Source: Klenkia brasiliensis
Lineage (GTDB): Bacteria; Actinomycetota; Actinomycetes; Mycobacteriales; Geodermatophilaceae
DNA length: 64,000 nt
Assembly (NCBI RefSeq): GCF_900100695.1
Contig: NZ_FNCF01000004.1
Span: 186,001 to 250,000, forward strand
Reading direction: 5' to 3'
Position 1 is the first letter of the stretch. Each line of letters begins with the position of its first letter. The position numbers were made by a program, and so were the translations under genes. Under the pieces are notes generated by a model, which saw nothing but the letters and a program-made list of their open reading frames with translations, was not told where the DNA came from and ran no database searches. Positions 3,686-38,880 of this stretch are shown here, in pieces.

Positions 3686-5577
3686 TGGCCGGTCGCGGGC
3701 GGATCCGGGCCGCCGACATCGCCACCGTGCGCGAGCGGGCCAAGATCGACGAGGTCGTCGGCGAGCACCTGCAGCTCAAGCGGGCCGGCGGCGGGTCGCT
3801 CAAGGGCCTGTGCCCCTTCCACGACGAGAAGTCGCCCTCGTTCCACGTCACCCCGACCCGGGGCCTGTTCCACTGCTTCGGCTGCGGCGCCGGCGGCGAC
3901 GTCATCAAGTTCGTGCAGGACATCGACCACCTGACCTTCAGCGAGGCCGTCGAACTGCTGGCGGGGCGGGCCGGCGTCCAGCTGCAGTACGAGGACGACG
4001 GCGGCCGGCCCACCGGCGCCCCCGACCGGGCCGCGGCCGGCCAGCGCGCCCGGCTGGTCGCCGCCAACACCGCCGCCGCGGAGTTCTACCGCGCCCAGCT
4101 GGCCACCCCCGACGCCGCGATCGCCCGCACCTTCCTGGCCCAGCGCGGGTTCACCCGCGAGATGGCCGCCGACTTCGACTGCGGCTTCGCCCCGGCCGGC
4201 TGGGATACCCTGACCAAGCACCTGCGGCAGGCCGGGTTCAGCCAGCAGGAGCTGGAGACCGCGGGCCTGTCCAAGCAGTCCTCGCGCGGCACCTACATCG
4301 ACAGGTTCCACCGCCGGCTGCTGTGGCCCATCCGGGACATCACCGGCGACGTCATCGGGTTCGGCGCCCGCAAGCTCGCCGACGACGACCCGGGCCCGAA
4401 GTACCTCAACACCCCCGAGACACCGCTGTACAAGAAGTCGACGGTGCTCTACGGCGTGGAGCGGGCCAAGCGCGACATCGCCCGCCAGCACCGCGCCGTC
4501 GTCGTCGAGGGCTACACCGACGTGATGGCCTGCCACATTGCCGGTGTCACCACCGCGGTCGCCTCCTGCGGCACGGCCTTCGGTGCCGAGCACATCAACG
4601 TGCTGCGCCGGTTGCTCATGGACCAGGACGAGTTCCGCGGTGAGGTCGTCTACTGCTTCGACGGCGACAAGGCGGGCCAGGCCGCCGCGATGAAGACCTT
4701 CGCCGAGGACCAGCGCTTCGTCGGGCAGACCTTCGTCGCCGTCGAGCCCGACGGCCGCGACCCCTGCGAGCTGCGCCAGGCGCACGGCGACGCCGCCGTC
4801 CGCGACCTGGTCGCCCGGCGTGTGCCGCTGATCGCCTTCGTGCTCAAGACGACCCTGGCCGATTACGACCTGGACACCGTCGAGGGCCGGGTGCACGCCC
4901 TGGACAAGGCGGTCCCGATGGTCGCCCAGATCAAGGACCACGCGCTGCGGCCGGCCTACGCCCGCCAGCTCGCCGGCATGCTCGGCAACACCGACGAGGC
5001 CGAGGTGCTCGAGCGGGTGCGGGCCGCGACCGGCGAGGGTGCGCCGTCCGCACGGCCGCGGTCGCGCCCCAAGGCGCCGGCCCGCACCGCCGACGACGCC
5101 GCCGCCGAGATCGAGCGGGAGGCGGTCAAGACCGCGCTGCAGTGCCCGGAGCTGGCCGGCCCGGCCTTCGACGCGATCGCCCCGGAGTCCTGGACGCACG
5201 CCGACTACGCGGCGGTGGCCGTCGCCGTGGCCGCCGCGGGCGGTGCGGCCTCGGCCACCGTCAGCGGCGCCGCGTGGGTGGACCAGGTGGGCCAGCACGC
5301 CGGCACCGACGACGTCCGGCGGCTGCTGCCCGCGCTGGCCGTGGAGCCGCTGAAGTCCCCGGCCGACGAGCCCGACAGCGGGTACGTGCACGCGGTGCTG
5401 GCCCGGCTGCAGGAGATGGCCGCCGTGCGCCGGGTGGCCGCGCTCAAGGGCCGGCTGCAGCGGATGAACCCGGTGGAGTCCGCCGACGAGTACACCAAGG
5501 TGTTCGGCCAGCTCGTCGCGCTCGAGCAGGAGGCGCGGGCGCTGCGCGAACGGGCCATCGGCGGTCTCTCGGCGTGA
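3685..5577 (+). CDS. dnaG: DNA primase
   Basis: Makes RNA primers for lagging-strand and initiating DNA synthesis at the replication fork; 630 aa, full family length. The N-terminal CHC2 zinc domain (about 40-65) reads [13 protein letters not shown] then [10 protein letters not shown]. The catalytic core contains the DnaG motif [13 protein letters not shown], the TOPRIM glutamate in [11 protein letters not shown] and the metal-binding FDGDKAGQ. The C-terminal helicase-binding region (from about 480) is degenerate, as usual in actinobacteria. ATG 3685 overlaps the previous stop by one base. Confidence 0.97.
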
Positions 5578-32416: not shown

Positions 32417-33280
32417 TCAGGCGCGGCCGCGCCACGGCACGACCCGCCGCTCGACGGCGCGCAGCGCGGCGTCGATGAGCAGGCCGGAGATGCCGATGGC
32501 GAAGAGTCCGAGGATCACGACGTCGGACTGGTTGAAGGCCTGGGCCTGGCGGATCATGCCGCCGATCCCGGGAAGGCCGTTGACCGTCTCGGCGGCCACC
32601 AGGGAGGAGTAGGCGATGCCGACGGCCAGCCGGACGCCGGTGGAGATCTCCGGCAGCGCCGAGGGCAGCACCACGCTGATCGTGGTCTGCCACCGACTGG
32701 CGCCCATCGCCCGGGCGGCCTCCACCAGGGTTGCCGGGGCGCCGACGACGGCTGCCGCGGTGGCGACCGCGACCGGCGGCATGGCCGCGATGCCGAGCAG
32801 CCAGATCTTGGGTGACTCGTCGATGCCCAGCCAGATGATCAGCAGGCTGAAGTAGGCCAGCGGCGGCAGGGTGCGCAGGAAGGTCACCCAGGGCTCGACG
32901 ACGACCCGGACCCAGGGCAGGGTCCCCATGAGCAGCCCGACGACGAGGCCGGCGGCGACGCCGAACAGCGACCCGAGACCGATGCGGCCCAGGCTGATGC
33001 CGAGGTGGTCGATCAGGTAGTGGCCCTGGTAGCCGACCACACCGTCGTTGGTGGTCGAGGTGCGCACGAGCGCCTCCCAGACCGCGCCCGGTGAGGGCAG
33101 CAGCACCGGGCTCCAGATCTGCAGCGAGTACAGCAGCTGCCACAGCGCCAGCAGGACGCCGGTGGCCAGGATGCGGACGCCGACGCGGCGCCAGCGGCTG
33201 GCGGAGCGGGCGAGCCGCGGGCGGCCGGGGGCGGCGCCGGTGGGCGCCTCCTCCTCGGCACGCGCGAGCAGGGTGGTCAC
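32417..33280 (-). CDS. tauC: Taurine/sulfonate ABC transporter permease
   Basis: 287 aa, six helices. The BPD_transp_1 motif is EAARAMGASRWQTTISVVLPSALPEI; the ABC-facing loop EAA---G---------I-LP is intact. Also FLRTLPPLAYFSLLIIWLGI and NGLPGIGGMIRQAQ, typical of TauC/SsuC. GTG 33280 is the first long gene after a 26-aa leader peptide ORF 68 bases upstream. The gene order permease, binding protein, ATPase differs from E. coli tauABCD. Confidence 0.93.
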   Translation of the reverse strand: MTTLLARAEEEAPTGAAPGRPRLARSASRWRRVGVRILATGVLLALWQLLYSLQIWSPVLLPSPGAVWEALVRTSTTNDGVVGYQGHYLIDHLGISLGRIGLGSLFGVAAGLVVGLLMGTLPWVRVVVEPWVTFLRTLPPLAYFSLLIIWLGIDESPKIWLLGIAAMPPVAVATAAAVVGAPATLVEAARAMGASRWQTTISVVLPSALPEISTGVRLAVGIAYSSLVAAETVNGLPGIGGMIRQAQAFNQSDVVILGLFAIGISGLLIDAALRAVERRVVPWRGRA

Positions 33281-33348
33281 AGGGGGACTCCACGGAGCAG
33301 GCCCCGGCGCGTGAGGGCGGACCGGTGGCGGGGTCAGGTGAGGAGAGG

Positions 33349-33429
33349 TCAGCGCGTGCGCAGACAGAGGGCGCTGCAGACGCGCCCGTGGTCGACCACC
33401 CGGCGAACGGTGAGCAGGCTGTGTCGCAC
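33349..33429 (-). CDS. Small leader peptide of the tau operon
   Basis: 26 codons from GTG 33429 (an in-frame GTG at 33438 is possible), with GAGG 8 bases before the chosen start. The peptide starts MRHSLLTVRRVVDHGRVCSA and ends LCLRTR. The core LLTxRRxVDxGR-x2-SALC recurs in two other tiny ORFs of the window, before metN and before ssuA. Leader peptides of this shape precede sulfur-uptake genes in many actinobacteria. Cys codons near the end could let cysteine supply control ribosome speed and downstream expression. Mechanism is inferred. Confidence 0.75.
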   Translation of the reverse strand: MRHSLLTVRRVVDHGRVCSALCLRTR

Positions 33430-33536
33430 TGCACTCACCTCGTCCTGGTCCGTGGGCTCCCGCCCGGGTCGACGGCGGCAACCTATGTGCCCGACTGCTA
33501 TCCCGTCAATTCCCATCGACATGGTGCACTTCACCG
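33430..33536. promoter_or_regulatory. Divergent promoter region, tau leader / SsuD-like monooxygenase
   Basis: 107 bases between divergent start codons. It contains the locally AT-richer stretch cctatgtgcccgactgctat and gtcaattcccatcgacat, plausible promoter elements, but no hexamer pair can be called with certainty. Confidence 0.35.
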
Positions 33537-34616
33537 GTGGAGATGCACTGGTTCCTGCCCACCCGGGGCGACAGCCGCGACGTCGGCCCGGCGACCACCG
33601 ACCGCGGGCACAACGCCGCCGCACTGCGCCGGCGGCCGACCCTGGACTACCTGGGCGCGGTGGCCCAGGCCGCCGAGCAGGCCGGGTTCGCCGCCGTGCT
33701 GACCCCGACCGGGTCCGGCTGCGAGGACGCCTGGGTGACCTGCGCGGCGCTGCTGGACCGCACCCGGCGGCTGCACTTCCTGGTCGCGTTCCGGCCCGGC
33801 TTCATCGCCCCGGTGCTGGCCGCGCAGCAGGCGGCGAGCTTCCAGCGGTTGTCGGGGGGTCGGCTGCGGCTCAACGTGGTGGCCGGCGGGGACCCGGTCG
33901 AGCAGCGGGCCTACGGCGACTTCGCCGACCACGACGCCCGCTACGCCCGCACCGCGGAGTTCCTCGAGGTGGTGCGCCGCTGCTTCGCCGGGGAGCGCTT
34001 CGACCTGGCCGGTGAGCACGTGCGGGTGGAGGGCGCCGGGTTGACCAACCCGCCCGACGTCGTCCCGCCGGTCTACCTGGGCGGGGCGTCCGGGCCGGCC
34101 GAGGACGTCGCCGCGAAGTACGTCGACACCTACCTGACCTGGGGCGAGCCGCCGACGATGGTCGCCGAGCGGCTGGACCGGGTGCGTGAGAAGGCCGCAG
34201 CGCAGGGCCGCACGGTCCGGTTCGGGATCCGGCTGCACGTGGTCAGCCGGGACACGCCCGAACAGGCCTGGGCCGAGGCCGACCGGATGCTCGCCGGGAT
34301 GCCCGCCCACGCGGTCGCGGCCACCCAGGAGCGCTTCGCCCGGATGGACTCCGTCGGCCAGGCCCGGATGGCCTCGCTGCACGGCGGGTCGGCCGGGGAC
34401 GGCGCCCGGTCTCTGGAGGTGGCGCCGAACCTGTGGGCCGGCATCGGGCTGGTCCGGGAGGGCGCGGCGACCGCCCTGGTGGGCAGCCACGAGCAGGTCG
34501 CCGCGCGGATCACCGAGTACGCCGACCTGGGGTTCGACGAGTTCGTGCTCTCGGGCTACCCGCACCTGGAGGAGGCCTGGCGGGTGGGCGAGGAGGTCCT
34601 CCCGCTCCTGCGCTGA
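33537..34616 (+). CDS. ssuD: LLM-class flavin-dependent alkanesulfonate monooxygenase (SsuD-like)
   Basis: 359 aa, reduced-FMN-dependent oxygenase that splits alkanesulfonates to aldehyde and sulfite. SsuD signatures: MHWFLPTRGD at the start, FAAVLTPTGSGCEDAWV (active-site Cys), FLVAFRPGFIAPVLAAQQAA, SGGRLRLNVVAGGDP, YLGGASGPAEDVAAKY and YLTWGEPPTMVAERL. Start is GTG 33537 or ATG 33543; both lack a normally spaced ribosome-binding site, so the mRNA may have a very short leader. No SsuE flavin reductase lies nearby. Divergent from the taurine operon, and probably co-regulated by sulfur limitation. Confidence 0.93.
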   Translation: MEMHWFLPTRGDSRDVGPATTDRGHNAAALRRRPTLDYLGAVAQAAEQAGFAAVLTPTGSGCEDAWVTCAALLDRTRRLHFLVAFRPGFIAPVLAAQQAASFQRLSGGRLRLNVVAGGDPVEQRAYGDFADHDARYARTAEFLEVVRRCFAGERFDLAGEHVRVEGAGLTNPPDVVPPVYLGGASGPAEDVAAKYVDTYLTWGEPPTMVAERLDRVREKAAAQGRTVRFGIRLHVVSRDTPEQAWAEADRMLAGMPAHAVAATQERFARMDSVGQARMASLHGGSAGDGARSLEVAPNLWAGIGLVREGAATALVGSHEQVAARITEYADLGFDEFVLSGYPHLEEAWRVGEEVLPLLR

Positions 34617-34663
34617 CTCCGCACCGCGCACCAGTTCGGCAGGGATGTGCATCGCCAGGCTGG

Positions 34664-34726
34664 TCGGGTGCACTCCGGGGCTTCGTCCTCGACGTCGCCA
34701 CCGGGAAGCTGCACGAGGTCCCCTGA
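34664..34726 (+). pseudogene. Carbonic anhydrase C-terminal remnant (tentative)
   Basis: The 20 codons before the stop at 34724 encode SGALRGFVLDVATGKLHEVP. The sequence RGFVxDVxTGxLxEV is how many actinobacterial beta-carbonic anhydrases end. The rest of that enzyme (about 180 aa with its zinc CxDxR/HxxC motifs) is absent upstream, where ssuD ends at 34616. Probably a relic of a gene lost when the sulfur genes joined; the match is short, so moderate doubt remains. Confidence 0.4.
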
Positions 34727-34731
34727 CCGAC

Positions 34732-34767
34732 GATCCGGAGCCCGGTCGTCGATCCGGGCTCCGGATC
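34732..34767. terminator. Hairpin terminator upstream of the metNIQ leader
   Basis: Perfect 14-bp arms GATCCGGAGCCCGG / CCGGGCTCCGGATC with loop tcgtcgat, 5 bases after the carbonic-anhydrase-like stop. It separates ssuD transcription from the met operon. Confidence 0.82.
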
Positions 34768-34851
34768 CACGGCGGGCGACGCTGAGCGCTTGCTCACAGA
34801 AAGTCCACCGACGTTGTAGGGATTGCGCACAGGCAGGCAGGATGGGCGGCG

Positions 34852-34923
34852 TGCCCCGGCTCCTCCTGACGTGCGACCGCGCCGTCGACCACGCCGGCAC
34901 GGCCAGCTACCTCTGTCGCTGAC
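34852..34923 (+). CDS. Small leader peptide of the metNIQ operon
   Basis: 23 codons from GTG 34852 (an in-frame ATG at 34843 would add three residues); AGGATGG lies upstream. The peptide is MPRLLLTCDRAVDHAGTAS followed by YLCR and a stop. It shares LLT-x2-R-x-VDH and the S-x-LCR end with the leaders before tauC and ssuA. It carries two Cys codons. A nested hairpin begins within its stop codon, as expected for attenuation. Confidence 0.75.
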
Positions 34924-34965
34924 GACGTCGTCCCCGAGGGGGCGCTGCGCCCCCATCCGTCGTCT
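34922..34965 (+). promoter_or_regulatory. Candidate attenuator hairpin behind the met leader peptide
   Basis: GACGACG (34922-34928, starting in the leader stop codon) can pair with CGTCGTC (34959-34965). Inside it GGGGGCG / CGCCCCC (34939-34955) forms a tight 7-bp stem. A ribosome stalled on the leader would cover the first arm. metN starts 21 bases after the structure. Confidence 0.55.
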
Positions 34966-34985
34966 GCCCGAGGAACAGCTGTCCC

Positions 34986-35981
34986 GTGATCGAGCTCCAC
35001 CACGTCCGCAAGGTCTTCCCCGGCCGCCGCGGCGGTCCCGACGTCGTCGCCCTCGACGGCGTCGACCTCGCCGTCCCGGCCGGTGACTTCGCCGGCGTCG
35101 TCGGCCCCTCGGGCTCCGGCAAGAGCACGCTGATCCGGCTGGTCAACCTGCTGGAGCGGCCCACGTCGGGGTCGGTGGCCGTCGACGGCCGGGTGCTCAC
35201 CGACCTGCCGGCCGACCAGGTGCGGCAGGCGCGCAGCTCCATCGGCATGGTCTTCCAGCACTTCGAGCTGATGGACTCCCGGACCGCGGCCGAGAACGTC
35301 GAGCACCCGCTGGAGCTGGCCGGGGTGGGCCGCGCCGAGCGGCGTCGCCGGTCGGCCGAGCTGCTGGACCTCGTCGGGCTGGCCGAGCGGGCCGGTGCGC
35401 GGCCGCGGCAGCTGTCCGGCGGGCAGAAGCAGCGGGTCGCCATCGCCCGTGCGCTGGCCGCCCGGCCGCAGGTGCTGCTCTGCGACGAGGCCACCTCGGC
35501 CCTGGACCAGGCCAGCACCACCGGGGTGCTGCAGCTCCTGCGCCGGGTGCGCGACGAACTCGGCCTCACCGTCCTGCTGATCACCCACGAGATGGCCGTG
35601 GTCAAGGCGGTCTGCGACTCCGCCGTCCTGCTGGAGGCCGGCCGGGTCGTCGACGGCGGCCGGCTGGACGACGTCCTCACCCGCGACGACTCGCCGCTGG
35701 CCGCGGCACTGCTGCCCGCGCCGGTGGCCGACGACCGCGTCGCCGGCACCCTGCTGCGGGTCACCGTCACCGAGGCCGCGCCCGAGGCCGACGTGCTGCG
35801 GGTGCTGGTCGGCCAGCTGGGCCTGGCCGTCGAGGTGGCCGGCGGGTCGGTGGAGACCGTCGCCGGCGGCCGGCACGGCCGGCTGCTGCTGCGGATCACC
35901 GACGGCGACCTGTCCGGCCTGGACACCGCGCTCACCCAGCTGCGCGCCGAGGGCTCCAAGGTCGAGCGGGTGGCGGCATGA
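34986..35981 (+). CDS. metN: Methionine ABC transporter ATP-binding protein MetN
   Basis: 331 aa from GTG 34986. Walker A GPSGSGKST, GMVFQHFELMDSRTAAENV (Q-loop; the usual 'NLL' is replaced by 'ELM'), signature LSGGQKQRVAIARAL, Walker B VLLCDEATSALDQ, switch His LITHEMAVVK, all typical of MetN. The C-terminal NIL domain (about 250-331) binds methionine and inhibits transport; it is present (VTVTEAAPEADVLRVLVGQL, EGSKVERVA). Overlaps metI by 4 bases. Takes up methionine, possibly also other sulfur amino acids. Confidence 0.95.
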   Translation: MIELHHVRKVFPGRRGGPDVVALDGVDLAVPAGDFAGVVGPSGSGKSTLIRLVNLLERPTSGSVAVDGRVLTDLPADQVRQARSSIGMVFQHFELMDSRTAAENVEHPLELAGVGRAERRRRSAELLDLVGLAERAGARPRQLSGGQKQRVAIARALAARPQVLLCDEATSALDQASTTGVLQLLRRVRDELGLTVLLITHEMAVVKAVCDSAVLLEAGRVVDGGRLDDVLTRDDSPLAAALLPAPVADDRVAGTLLRVTVTEAAPEADVLRVLVGQLGLAVEVAGGSVETVAGGRHGRLLLRITDGDLSGLDTALTQLRAEGSKVERVAA

Positions 35982-36637
35982 GCGACTGGTCCCGGATCGC
36001 CCCGCAGCTGGCCGACGCCACCGGGGAGACCCTCTACATGGTCGCGGTCTCGGCCGTGCTCACCGTGCTGCTGGGCATCCCGCTCGGCGTCCTGCTGACC
36101 GTCACCGCCCCCGACGGGCTGGCCCCGCGACCCTGGACCAACCGGGTCCTCGGTCTGGTCGTCAACCTCGGCCGGTCGCTGCCGTTCATCATCCTGCTGG
36201 TCCTGGTCGCACCGGTCACCCGCGGCCTGGTGGGCACCACCATCGGCTCCACCGCCGCGATCGTGCCGCTGACCATCGGCGCCGTCCCGTTCCTGGCCCG
36301 GCTGGTGGAGACCTCGCTGCGCGAGGTGTCCCACGGCAAGGTCGAGGCCGCCCTGGCCATGGGCGCCCGCCGCCGGCAGGTGGTGCGCACCGTGCTCCTG
36401 CCCGAGGCGCTGCCCTCGCTGGTCGCCGGCGTCACCGTCACCGTCGTCGCGCTGATCAGCTACTCCGCCATGGCCGGCGCGATCGGAGGCGGCGGGCTCG
36501 GCGACTTCGCCATCCGGTTCGGCTACCAGCAGTTCCGCACCGACATCACCCTGCTCACCGTCGTCCTGCTGCTCGTCGTCGTCCAGGCGCTGCAGTTCGG
36601 CGGCGACACCTGGGCGCGCCGCCTGGCGCGTCGCTGA
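35978..36637 (+). CDS. metI: Methionine ABC transporter permease MetI
   Basis: 219 aa, five helices as in MetI. Characteristic blocks: NLGRSLPFIILLVLVAPVTR, GTTIGSTAAIVPLTIGAVPF LAR (split here for length), the coupling loop EAALAMGARRRQVVRTVLLP, and SYSAMAGAIGGGGLGDFAIR near the C terminus. Starts at ATG 35978 in the metN stop and precedes metQ by 23 bases. Forms the membrane channel of the methionine importer. Confidence 0.96.
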   Translation: MSDWSRIAPQLADATGETLYMVAVSAVLTVLLGIPLGVLLTVTAPDGLAPRPWTNRVLGLVVNLGRSLPFIILLVLVAPVTRGLVGTTIGSTAAIVPLTIGAVPFLARLVETSLREVSHGKVEAALAMGARRRQVVRTVLLPEALPSLVAGVTVTVVALISYSAMAGAIGGGGLGDFAIRFGYQQFRTDITLLTVVLLLVVVQALQFGGDTWARRLARR

Positions 36638-36660
36638 CCATCCCCGAAGAGAAGAGAACC

Positions 36661-37479
36661 GTGCGCTCCCGCCTCGCCCTCGCCCTGTCCGTCCTCACCT
36701 CGGCCGCCGTGCTGGCGGCCTGCGGGGGAGGGGACGCCGAGCTGTCCGCCGCCGACGAGCCGTTGCGCGTCGGGGCCTCGCCCGTGCCGCACGCCGAGAT
36801 CCTGCGGTTCATCGACGAGAACCTGGCCGAGGACGCCGGGCTGGACCTCGACGTCGTGGAGTTCACCGACTACGTGCAGCCCAACGTCGCCCTCGACGAC
36901 GGCTCGCTGGACGCCAACTTCTTCCAGACCATCCCCTACCTGGAGGAGCAGGAGTCCAGCGCCGGCTACGACTTCACCGCCCTGGAGCCGGTGCACATCG
37001 AGCCGCTGGGCATCTACTCCGACTCCCTCACCGACCTCGCCGACCTGCCCGACGGCGGCACCGTGGCCATCCCCAACGACCCGACCAACGCAGCCCGCGC
37101 GCTGCGGCTGCTCGAGGCCAACGACCTGATCACCCTGGCCGACACCGGCGACACCGCGCCCACCTCGCTGGACATCGAGGAGAACCCGAAGGACCTCGAG
37201 ATCTCCGAGGTCGAGGCCGCCCAGGTGCCCCGGTCGCTGGCCGACGTCGACATCGCCGTCATCAACGGCAACTACGCCATCGACGCCGACCTCTCCCCGG
37301 CCGAGGACGCCCTGGCGCTGGAGGAGGCCGAGGGCAACCCCAACGCCAACCTGCTCGTCGTGCGCACCGGCGACGAGGGCGACGAGCGCATCCAGGCCCT
37401 GGAGGAGCTGCTGCACTCCGACGAGGTCCGGCAGTTCATCGAGGACGAGTACGACGGCGCGGTGCTGCCGGCGTTCTGA
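36661..37479 (+). CDS. metQ: Methionine-binding lipoprotein MetQ
   Basis: 272 aa from GTG 36661 with agaagagaa as ribosome-binding site. Lipobox AAVLAACGGG. The mature NLPA/MetQ domain shows VGASPVPHAEILRFI, EFTDYVQPNVALDDGSLDAN FFQ (split), LGIYSDSLTDLADLPDGGTV, IPNDPTNAARALRLLE and INGNYAIDADLSP, all conserved in MetQ. Very acidic. Captures methionine for MetNI. A strong hairpin terminator follows the stop by 29 bases. Confidence 0.96.
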   Translation: MRSRLALALSVLTSAAVLAACGGGDAELSAADEPLRVGASPVPHAEILRFIDENLAEDAGLDLDVVEFTDYVQPNVALDDGSLDANFFQTIPYLEEQESSAGYDFTALEPVHIEPLGIYSDSLTDLADLPDGGTVAIPNDPTNAARALRLLEANDLITLADTGDTAPTSLDIEENPKDLEISEVEAAQVPRSLADVDIAVINGNYAIDADLSPAEDALALEEAEGNPNANLLVVRTGDEGDERIQALEELLHSDEVRQFIEDEYDGAVLPAF

Positions 37480-37508
37480 CGCCCGGCCCCCGGGACGGGG
37501 GAGCCACC

Positions 37509-37544
37509 ACGGAGGGCCCGGCGCGCACGCGCCGGGCCCTCCGT
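37509..37544 (+). terminator. Hairpin terminator of the metNIQ operon
   Basis: Perfect 16-bp arms (ACGGAGGGCCCGGCGC, 37509-37524; GCGCCGGGCCCTCCGT, 37529-37544) with loop GCAC. The next leader ORF begins 94 bases later. Confidence 0.9.
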
Positions 37545-37637
37545 CGTCCCGCCACCGTGAGCAGGACCACTCCCGCGGTGCAGGACGGGTTCCCGGATTC
37601 CTCACCATCCCGATGGAGATGGGGTTAAGGTCCCCGC

Positions 37638-37718
37638 GTGCCCAAGCTGCCCCTCCTCGTGGTCTGCCGCCACGTCGACCAGGGTCGGCTGAGCAGCAGT
37701 CTCTGTCGCGCCGTCTGA
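37638..37718 (+). CDS. Small leader peptide of the ssuABC operon
   Basis: 26 codons from GTG 37638, ggggttaagg upstream as ribosome-binding site. The peptide begins MPKLPLLVVCRHVDQGRLS and ends SSLCRAV. It shares LL-x-(T/V)-x-x-R-x-VD-x-GR and S-x-LCR with the leaders before tauC and metN. It lies 91 bases before the binding-protein gene. The intervening DNA can form a CGCGG/CCGCG stem (37744-37759), weaker than the met attenuator. Confidence 0.75.
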   Translation: MPKLPLLVVCRHVDQGRLSSSLCRAV

Positions 37719-37809
37719 CCCACCGCCCCCACCTCCCTCGGGCGCGGTCACGGCCGCGCGGGCACCGGTGGACGCGCACGTGGCTGCGCCATGGCCCCCA
37801 GGAAGACCC

Positions 37810-38880
37810 ATGCGCTCTCGACGCACCACCCGCACCCTCGCCGCGCTCGCCGTGCTGACGACCGTCTCGGCCCTCGCCGCCTGCGGCTCCTCCTCCGACG
37901 ACAGCGCCTCCGGCCCCGCCTCGGAGCTGCGGCTCGGCTACTTCGCCAACGTCACCCACGCGGCCGCCCTCATCGGTGTGCAGCAGGGCTTCATCCAGGA
38001 CGAGCTCGGCGAGGGCACCACCCTGACCACCCAGGTGTTCAACGCCGGCCCCGACGAGGTCGAGGCGTTGTTCGCCGGCGGGCTGGACGCCGCCTACATC
38101 GGGCCCAGCCCGACCATCAACGCCTACGCCCAGAGCAACGGCGACGCGATCCGGATCATCTCCGGTGCGGCGTCCGGCGGCGCGCAGCTCGTCGTGCGCG
38201 ACGGCATCGACACCCCCGACGACCTGCGCGGGACGACGCTGGCGAGCCCGCAGCTGGGCAACACCCAGGACGTCGCGCTGCGCACCTGGCTCACCTCGCA
38301 GGGCCTGGCCAACAGCGTGGACGGCGGCGGCGACGTCACCATCACCCCGACCAAGAACAGCGACATCCTCAGCCTGTTCGCCTCCGGCGACCTCGACGGC
38401 GCCTGGGTCCCCGAGCCCTACGCGTCGGACCTGGTCCTCGACGAGGGCGCCCACGTGCTGGTGGACGAGGCGGACCTGTGGCCCGAGGGCCGGTTCGTGA
38501 CCACCCAGCTGATCGTGCGCACCGAGTTCCTGCAGCAGCACCCCGAGACCGTCGACGCGTTGCTGCGCGCCAACGTGGAGTCGGTGCAGTTCGCCGACTC
38601 CGACCCCACCGCCGCCCAGGCCGCGGTGAACGACGGCCTGGTCGCGGCCGGCGGCTCGGCGCTGGACGACGCGGTCCTGCAGCGGGCCTGGTCGAACCTC
38701 ACGGTCACCTACGACCCCGTCGCGACGGCGCTGGCGCAGTCGGCGCAGAACGCGGTCGAGGCCGGCACCACCGCCGACGAGGTGGACCTCGACGGCATCT
38801 ACGACCTGGCCCCGCTGAACGCGATCCTCGAGGAGCAGGGCCTGGACCCGGTCTCCTCCGACGGGCTCGGGACCGAGTGA
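37810..38880 (+). CDS. ssuA: Aliphatic sulfonate ABC transporter substrate-binding lipoprotein
   Basis: 356 aa. Lipoprotein signal with SALAACGSSS, Ser/Asp linker, then an SsuA/NMT1-type domain: LRLGYFANVTHAAALIGVQQ, LFAGGLDAAYIGPSPTINAY, IISGAASGGAQLVVRDGI, STTLASPQLGNTQDVALRTW-like segment and WVPEPYASDLV. The GYFANVTHA opening is the actinobacterial form of sulfonate-binding proteins, distinct from the TauA copy at 31287. Probably binds alkanesulfonates or sulfate esters. ATG 37810 has AGGAAGA upstream. Its stop overlaps the ATPase start (TGATG). Confidence 0.9.
   Translation: MRSRRTTRTLAALAVLTTVSALAACGSSSDDSASGPASELRLGYFANVTHAAALIGVQQGFIQDELGEGTTLTTQVFNAGPDEVEALFAGGLDAAYIGPSPTINAYAQSNGDAIRIISGAASGGAQLVVRDGIDTPDDLRGTTLASPQLGNTQDVALRTWLTSQGLANSVDGGGDVTITPTKNSDILSLFASGDLDGAWVPEPYASDLVLDEGAHVLVDEADLWPEGRFVTTQLIVRTEFLQQHPETVDALLRANVESVQFADSDPTAAQAAVNDGLVAAGGSALDDAVLQRAWSNLTVTYDPVATALAQSAQNAVEAGTTADEVDLDGIYDLAPLNAILEEQGLDPVSSDGLGTE

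Follow-up and report, generated by a model that had tools for sequence, protein, structure and literature searches.

Short leader peptides before sulfur genes of Klenkia brasiliensis: a near-invariant UGU codon and a probable switch for cysteine shortage

Why should three sulfur import genes in one stretch of DNA each be preceded by a very short open reading frame (ORF) that ends soon after a cysteine codon? The stretch, called the window here, comprises 64,000 nucleotides of Klenkia brasiliensis with 74% G+C (contig NZ_FNCF01000004.1, positions 186,001 to 250,000), and the ORFs, leaders 1 to 3, lie upstream of, and in the same orientation as, genes of the tauC, metN and ssuA types (Table 1). 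Our analysis indicates that the three leader ORFs are real and in all likelihood functional, and that they belong, judged by sequence, to a short leader family known from actinobacteria, which probably switches sulfur genes on when cysteine is short. Across the leaders examined, the conserved cysteine is almost always written UGU, the rarer of its two codons.

The three leaders have in common LL, an Arg before VD, the Asp itself and a Cys exactly nine residues past this Asp, with 1 to 4 residues between the Cys and the stop; after the Asp they carry His or Gln, not Leu. The initial annotation of this DNA had described related leader peptides with GTG starts before sulfur import operons. GTG starts are possible for all three, Pfam and NCBIfam back TauC-, MetN- and SsuA-like genes behind them, and leaders 1 and 3 lie exactly where they had been placed (33349-33429, minus; 37638-37718, plus). 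Leader 2 likewise exists before metN, one base to the left of the 34852-34923 first given, and the proposed shared VDxG core had to be given up: leader 2 reads VD-H-A-G, so the Gly is not at a common position. A loose motif ([VI]D, eight residues, C, at most six residues, stop) has exactly three matches in the six frames of the window, namely the three leaders, against a mean of 0.63 in 60 first-order Markov sequences, and a stricter motif has 3 matches in the window and 0 in all 60 Markov sequences, both motifs having been composed after the peptides had been seen. Conservation in relatives, which the initial annotation had asked for, was found as well. Of 9 genus genomes searched, 5 have this MetN, and all 5 carry the metN leader; among 96 family genomes searched for each of the other two, the tauC leader occurs in 3/3 with this TauC and the ssuA leader in 11/16 with this SsuA, own genome included throughout, and the conserved Cys is TGT in 19/19 of these orthologous leaders. 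Spurious ORFs are common in G+C-rich genomes, and 40 ORFs of at least 20 residues overlap positions 33200-37900; that the leaders are such chance ORFs is nonetheless extremely improbable, being contradicted by the motif counts against their null, by the leaders at the same genes in relatives, by a reversed profile that matched 0/149 phylum genomes, and by the codon bias described below. At one of the five leaderless ssuA loci (L388, family genome G333), the beginning of the leader survives some 117 bases upstream of the SsuA match, whereas its Cys codon and stop have disappeared together with most of the spacer, and the remaining frame continues into an SsuA-like protein; we read this locus as a natural loss of the leader switch.

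It had also been said that peptides of this kind are already named in actinobacteria and that cysteine-dependent upstream ORFs are known in mycobacteria. Both statements are borne out by the NCBIfam 'putative leader peptide' family NF042934 (cis_reg_atten, cut-off 27 bits) and by the mycobacterial Cys-responsive leaderless ORFs of Canestrari et al. (2020), as cited in PMC9094748 and PMC13236596. NF042934 gives no match to leaders 1-3 at E up to 10. Leader 1 matches NF042936 (leader_Ms4527A, cut-off 45 bits) weakly, at 16.5 bits and E 0.0046, and leaders 2 and 3 match neither NF042936 nor any other NCBIfam leader family. Of ten related leaders taken from within the family, this genome included, every one matches one or more of NF042934, NF042936 and NF042933; the cut-off of NF042934 is passed by five (four of these from this genome), those of NF042936 and NF042933 by none. 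Because these relatives match NCBIfam families, the kind is known and the window leaders appear to be its divergent members; the family names are NCBI's labels, and function is predicted from kinship.

Three copies within 4.4 kb had been taken for a built-in regulon. The idea of a co-regulated leader set is retained, and its extent was drawn too narrowly, as a broader profile finds ten leaders spread over this genome. The first genes 3' of the ten encode tauC, metN, ssuA, sulfite reductase, an FAD/NAD(P)-binding protein, a GNAT protein, a winged-helix regulator, TauE, DUF4395 and a cysteine dioxygenase-like protein. A profile built on seven of this genome's leaders has a match in 56/57 family genomes (E up to 0.05), and the broader profile matches 100/118 class genomes and 8/149 phylum genomes, the latter being by list order 8/12 class members (own genome included) and none outside the class. 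Leaders of this genome were used in profile training (A1 was trained on them and A2 on some, C6:259445 being in neither), and those own-genome matches are therefore by construction. The sulfite reductase cluster accounts for 41/69 downstream genes found at named loci, among the matches listed. Ten other downstream genes, assigned by Pfam, include ThiS-like, PLP-enzyme, TauD, luciferase-like monooxygenase and cysteine dioxygenase families, as well as a dicarboxylate symporter and a 2-oxoacid ferredoxin oxidoreductase, which are not obviously sulfur genes. Cysteine dioxygenase-like genes stand behind two leaders, one in this genome (L256, leader 1486-1566, gene 1646-2191) and one in Streptomyces (L138, gene 4829-5347). 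At two loci, L004 (gene 966-1451, minus) and L061, a leader precedes a small winged-helix regulator, followed at L004 by a putative sulfotransferase-like gene named from sequence. At L003, and also at L027 and L029, two leaders point away from each other, separated by a few hundred bases; an FAD/NAD(P)-binding protein gene follows one and a GNAT protein gene the other.

A constraint on the Cys codon, which is UGU and never followed by G, had escaped the initial annotation. The Cys nine codons past the conserved Asp is UGU in 293/302 pooled leaders, that is, in 264/272 of a de-duplicated pool together with the later 39 loci of a named-loci scan, 30 of them new (among the matches listed). The regularity recurs in each set. 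In the family set the conserved Cys is TGT in 67/72 leaders, against 1/36 of the other Cys codons of those leaders and 4/255 Cys codons of their downstream genes. At the named loci, scanned with a pattern that left TGY free, it is TGT in 116/119 (80 counted first, 39 later), against 12/251 Cys codons in the genes behind the first 80, all among the matches listed, and class and phylum searches gave TGT in 133/135 leaders. The downstream genes pooled have UGU in 16/506 Cys codons, and the other Cys codons of the 272-leader pool divide into TGC 154 and TGT 17. The leaders share descent, so Fisher values are not to be taken at face value, and the fairer count is that of 45 representatives below 67% identity, of which 41 have TGT. 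The base that follows the conserved codon is C in 266, T in 28, A in 8 and G in 0 of 302, whereas G follows 189/505 (37%) of the Cys codons in genes.

These counts rest on the following sets. One of 73 regex matches in the family (L037, minus) was dropped as coding noise, leaving 72, and downstream genes were located for 68/73 family loci. The named-loci scan returned at least 119 loci; among the matches listed, downstream genes were located for 69/80, and four loci without a stop within 11 codons, two from each batch (the first 80 and the later 39), were still counted. The class and phylum set holds 137 leaders, of which 2 with tails longer than 12 residues stand outside the 135 count and inside the 272; 4/136 of its loci yielded no row, and sequences already seen were skipped. 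The search patterns required the Asp itself and the presence of Cys, with the Cys codon free. The named-loci DNA pattern demanded G or C at most wobble positions and left His, Asp and Cys free, where wobble T was found in 5, 10 and 78 of 80, respectively, among the matches listed. A degenerate DNA pattern run over this genome, its spacing off by one base, returned noise (112 matches vs 76 in the control), and the loci from the degenerate pattern (L007-L026) are excluded from all counts.

The neighboring conserved positions behave differently. The VD..R part had been described as conserved and as possibly sensed itself; it is indeed kept as amino acids, and it may be sensed. Arg stands at D+3 in 268/272 leaders, written with five synonymous codons (CGC, CGG, CGT, AGG and CGA), and the Asp is GAC in 229 and GAT in 43. 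Given this synonymous variation at Asp and Arg and the near-fixed UGU, selection looks to act on the residue in the case of Asp and Arg, and on the codon in that of Cys. Residues kept in this way would also be expected of a regulatory arrest peptide, in which the nascent R-x-H-V-D-L-x-R-V-x-S-A segment would act in the exit tunnel and arrest the ribosome in response to a small sulfur molecule, as in TnaC, with the Cys codon marking the arrest position and no hungry codon involved. The single Cys of 137/272 leaders and the fixed Asp-Cys distance, partly imposed by the search, agree with such arrest. The UGU requirement and the absence of a following G are left unexplained by it, and the Asp-Cys spacing and several residues were themselves search criteria, so that we regard this explanation, drawn by analogy, as unlikely. 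At D+6, Ser, when present, is AGC or AGT in 195/221 cases (272 leaders), whereas the downstream genes of the family set use these two for 388/1278 of their Ser codons; this may be another constraint at the codon level.

Could the codon be conserved as nucleotides alone? The codon after the Cys specifies varied residues (R, P, L, S, Q, H and others), yet its first base is C in 243/272 and never G, as if UGU(C) were an RNA or DNA site, a pairing partner or a protein site, independent of decoding. The words GACA or GACG occur in 155/267 spacers vs 123 expected (z 3.9), and the top bin of predicted partners lies 30-39 bases downstream, with 21 of the 98 leaders that have a partner above 0.3 falling into it. 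Against such a site, the predicted partners are scattered from 80 bases upstream to 130 downstream, GACA alone is weakly enriched (62/267 vs 47) and the unrelated word GAGA scores as high (z 4.5); we think a site of this sort quite improbable. In the sulfite reductase group, UGU looked by eye to pair with the leader start; this idea was set aside, as other groups are without such pairing and partners scatter. Fusion to the downstream gene by frameshifting was likewise set aside, because the number of bases between the leader stop and the gene start varies modulo 3.

The reading that we favor, and hold to be likely, is that the leaders make sulfur genes respond to cysteine supply, a shortage of Cys-tRNA stalling the ribosome at UGU and releasing downstream expression. 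It is supported by the NCBIfam kinship, by the mostly sulfur genes behind the family, by the conserved R..VD..R..S..C peptide and by the near-invariant UGU. The ribosome would start at or near the 5' end of the transcript and read the leader. With ample Cys-tRNA it would pass UGU, terminate a few codons on and depart, and the RNA past the leader stop would then be accessible to Rho, or free to fold over the next start, which would keep the operon low. With Cys-tRNA scarce it would halt with UGU in the A site, covering the leader stop and the first part of the spacer, and expression of the operon would follow. UGU would fix the position of the halt, given that additional Cys codons in these leaders are for the most part UGC, and VD..R, which would lie in the upper exit tunnel at that moment, may help it. 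If so, one signal would govern several sulfur steps of one genome, among them sulfite reduction and the import of taurine, methionine and sulfonate, without a dedicated regulator protein.

The only tRNA-Cys among the 45 tRNA genes found in this genome has the anticodon GCA, so UGU would depend on G-U wobble, and it is probably the slower of the two Cys codons. In enteric bacteria, NNC codons are reported to be read faster than NNU, Cys included (PMC4046918), and synonymous serine codons as starvation sensors in Bacillus subtilis offer a precedent (PMC3862929). A bolder proposal, to which we give somewhat less than an even chance, is that the leaders are class-wide a one-codon cysteine gauge, in which UGU, never with a G behind it, is fixed at one position as the slowest Cys codon, other Cys codons are kept fast as UGC to confine the halt to that position, and the nascent segment R.HVDL.RV.SA primes the ribosome to halt there, so that codon and peptide together would form the sensor. 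The UGU rule may be new here. No mention of such a preference in actinobacterial leaders was found in the available parts of the literature covered, which did not extend to Canestrari et al. (2020), where it could already stand. It is a sharp regularity against strong G+C pressure and, to us, the part worth following, since it singles out one base whose change should separate sensing by decoding speed, by nascent peptide and by an RNA site; it should also aid the annotation of such leaders.

How a stalled ribosome would release expression is suggested by the spacers. The first 20 bases past the leader stop contain 49-51% C and 25-28% G (267 leaders), as compared with 37% C and 33% G in 245 intergenic upstream controls, and a C-rich bubble test is positive for 159/267 leaders vs 18% of the 245 controls. 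In the window, this test for a C-rich, G-poor stretch is positive for leaders 1 and 3 (18 and 12) and negative for leader 2 (6). A classical trp-type attenuator, with an intrinsic terminator and its U-tract, is not indicated, as TTTT occurs in 26/264 spacers of the wider set and in none of the three window spacers. C-rich spacers with few U-tracts suggest a Rho-dependent step, a slight lean that applies to the wider set, and Rho has been suggested for mycobacterial cys leaders (PMC1262725). Folding of 107 spacers gave no strong fold common to them; the mean z of fold stability is -0.53 and 15/107 lie below -2, somewhat above chance. An Rfam scan of the window at gathering score returned a single tRNA elsewhere in the window and no leader RNA.

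Alternatively, the same cysteine sensing could act on translation: the downstream ribosome site would be hidden, by the leader RNA or by the spacer, until a stalled ribosome frees it. Control of this type is reported for cysteine genes of Mycobacterium smegmatis, which are under translation attenuation (PMC13236596), and in the predicted fold of the metN leader the leader end pairs with the metN ribosome-site region. The four orthologous metN spacers differ, though, and by eye do not show the strong G+C hairpin of 34923-34985, and the mean z of the 107 spacers also speaks against the idea, the chance of which we place a little short of even.

Several observations weigh against the reading that we favor. 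The spacer of leader 2 is not C-rich, a misfit with Rho; structure may still play a part in the 15 spacers more stable than their shuffles; and the mycobacterial leaders are cited as attenuators of translation, not transcription (PMC13236596). One Cys codon, as in half of the leaders, is few for a classical attenuator. Cysteine dioxygenase-like enzymes would use up cysteine, which does not fit plain starvation control unless they free sulfur from other thiols. Words complementary to UGUC are weakly enriched in spacers. Finally, as to the synonymous/nonsynonymous pattern that the initial annotation had named, raw counts over whole ssuA leaders, all pairs taken, give 154 synonymous vs 269 nonsynonymous codon differences, which is not strongly purifying.

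As for the leader starts in the window, T stands at -7 in all 11 members of the group formed by leader 3 with its orthologs, a base that leaderless initiation would require, and the placement of the candidate -10 box is compatible with such a start for leader 3 and possibly for leader 2; a Shine-Dalgarno-like stretch is seen at leader 1 and at both of its orthologs. Among the NCBIfam assignments of the genes in Table 1, the cut-off is reached by SsuA only. A MetQ-like protein and an alkanesulfonate monooxygenase-like protein are also encoded near the leaders.

Table 1. Leaders, spacers, candidate promoter elements and first genes in the window (positions counted from its first base).
Feature	Position	Strand	Description	Basis
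Leader 1	33349..33429	minus	VRHSLLTVRRVVDHGRVCSALCLRTR, 26 residues, 5' of tauC	sequence, motif, kept in 3/3 family genomes with this TauC
Leader 1 conserved Cys codon	33364..33366	minus	TGT, next base C	sequence
Leader 1-tauC spacer	33281..33348	minus	C-rich, 36 C + 16 G in 68	
tauC-like permease gene	32417..33280	minus		Pfam BPD_transp_1; top NCBIfam match TauC, under its cut-off
Candidate -10 box CAGGAT	34838..34843	plus	7 bases 5' of leader 2	read by eye, putative
Leader 2	34851..34922	plus	VPRLLLTCDRAVDHAGTASYLCR, 23 residues, 5' of metN	sequence, kept in 5/5 genus genomes with this MetN
Leader 2 conserved Cys codon	34914..34916	plus	TGT, next base C	sequence
Leader 2-metN spacer	34923..34985	plus	not clearly C-rich, 27 C + 20 G in 63; G+C hairpin	
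metN-like ATPase gene with NIL domain	34986..35981	plus		Pfam ABC_tran + NIL; top NCBIfam match MetN, under its cut-off
Candidate -10 box TAAGGT	37626..37631	plus	6 bases 5' of leader 3	T at -7 in 11/11 of group; putative function
Leader 3	37638..37718	plus	VPKLPLLVVCRHVDQGRLSSSLCRAV, 26 residues, 5' of ssuA	sequence, kept in 11/16 family genomes with this SsuA
Leader 3 conserved Cys codon	37704..37706	plus	TGT, next base C	sequence
Leader 3-ssuA spacer	37719..37812	plus	C-rich, 43 C + 31 G in 94	
ssuA-family binding protein gene	37813..38880	plus		NCBIfam TIGR01728, over its cut-off

Among the closest known systems, the NF042934 family consists of short leaders of actinobacterial type with the R.HVD..R..S..C core, and four other leaders of this genome pass its cut-off; the window leaders differ from it in staying under its cut-off and in carrying His or Gln in place of Leu after the Asp. 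The Ms4527A and Ms5788A families (NF042936 and NF042933) are likewise short Cys-bearing ORFs before sulfur genes, to which the leaders here score under the cut-offs, and the term 'polycysteine' does not fit a set of 272 in which half have a single Cys. The Cys leaders described for Mycobacterium, Propionibacterium and Bifidobacterium (Seliverstov et al., 2005; PMC1262725) resemble ours in that Cys codons lie close to the stop, a conserved terminator hairpin is lacking and a role of Rho has been suggested; in that account they contain runs of Cys codons and precede cys operons and cbs, whereas here one position is fixed and the sulfur genes are of wider range. The uORFC-8-2 before cysS in Rhodobacterales (PMC8632094) is also an upstream ORF with Cys codons that is thought to sense Cys-tRNA; as described there, it has two tandem Cys codons, UGC dominant, and an intrinsic terminator, in contrast to the single position, the dominant UGU and the few U-tracts of the leaders considered here.

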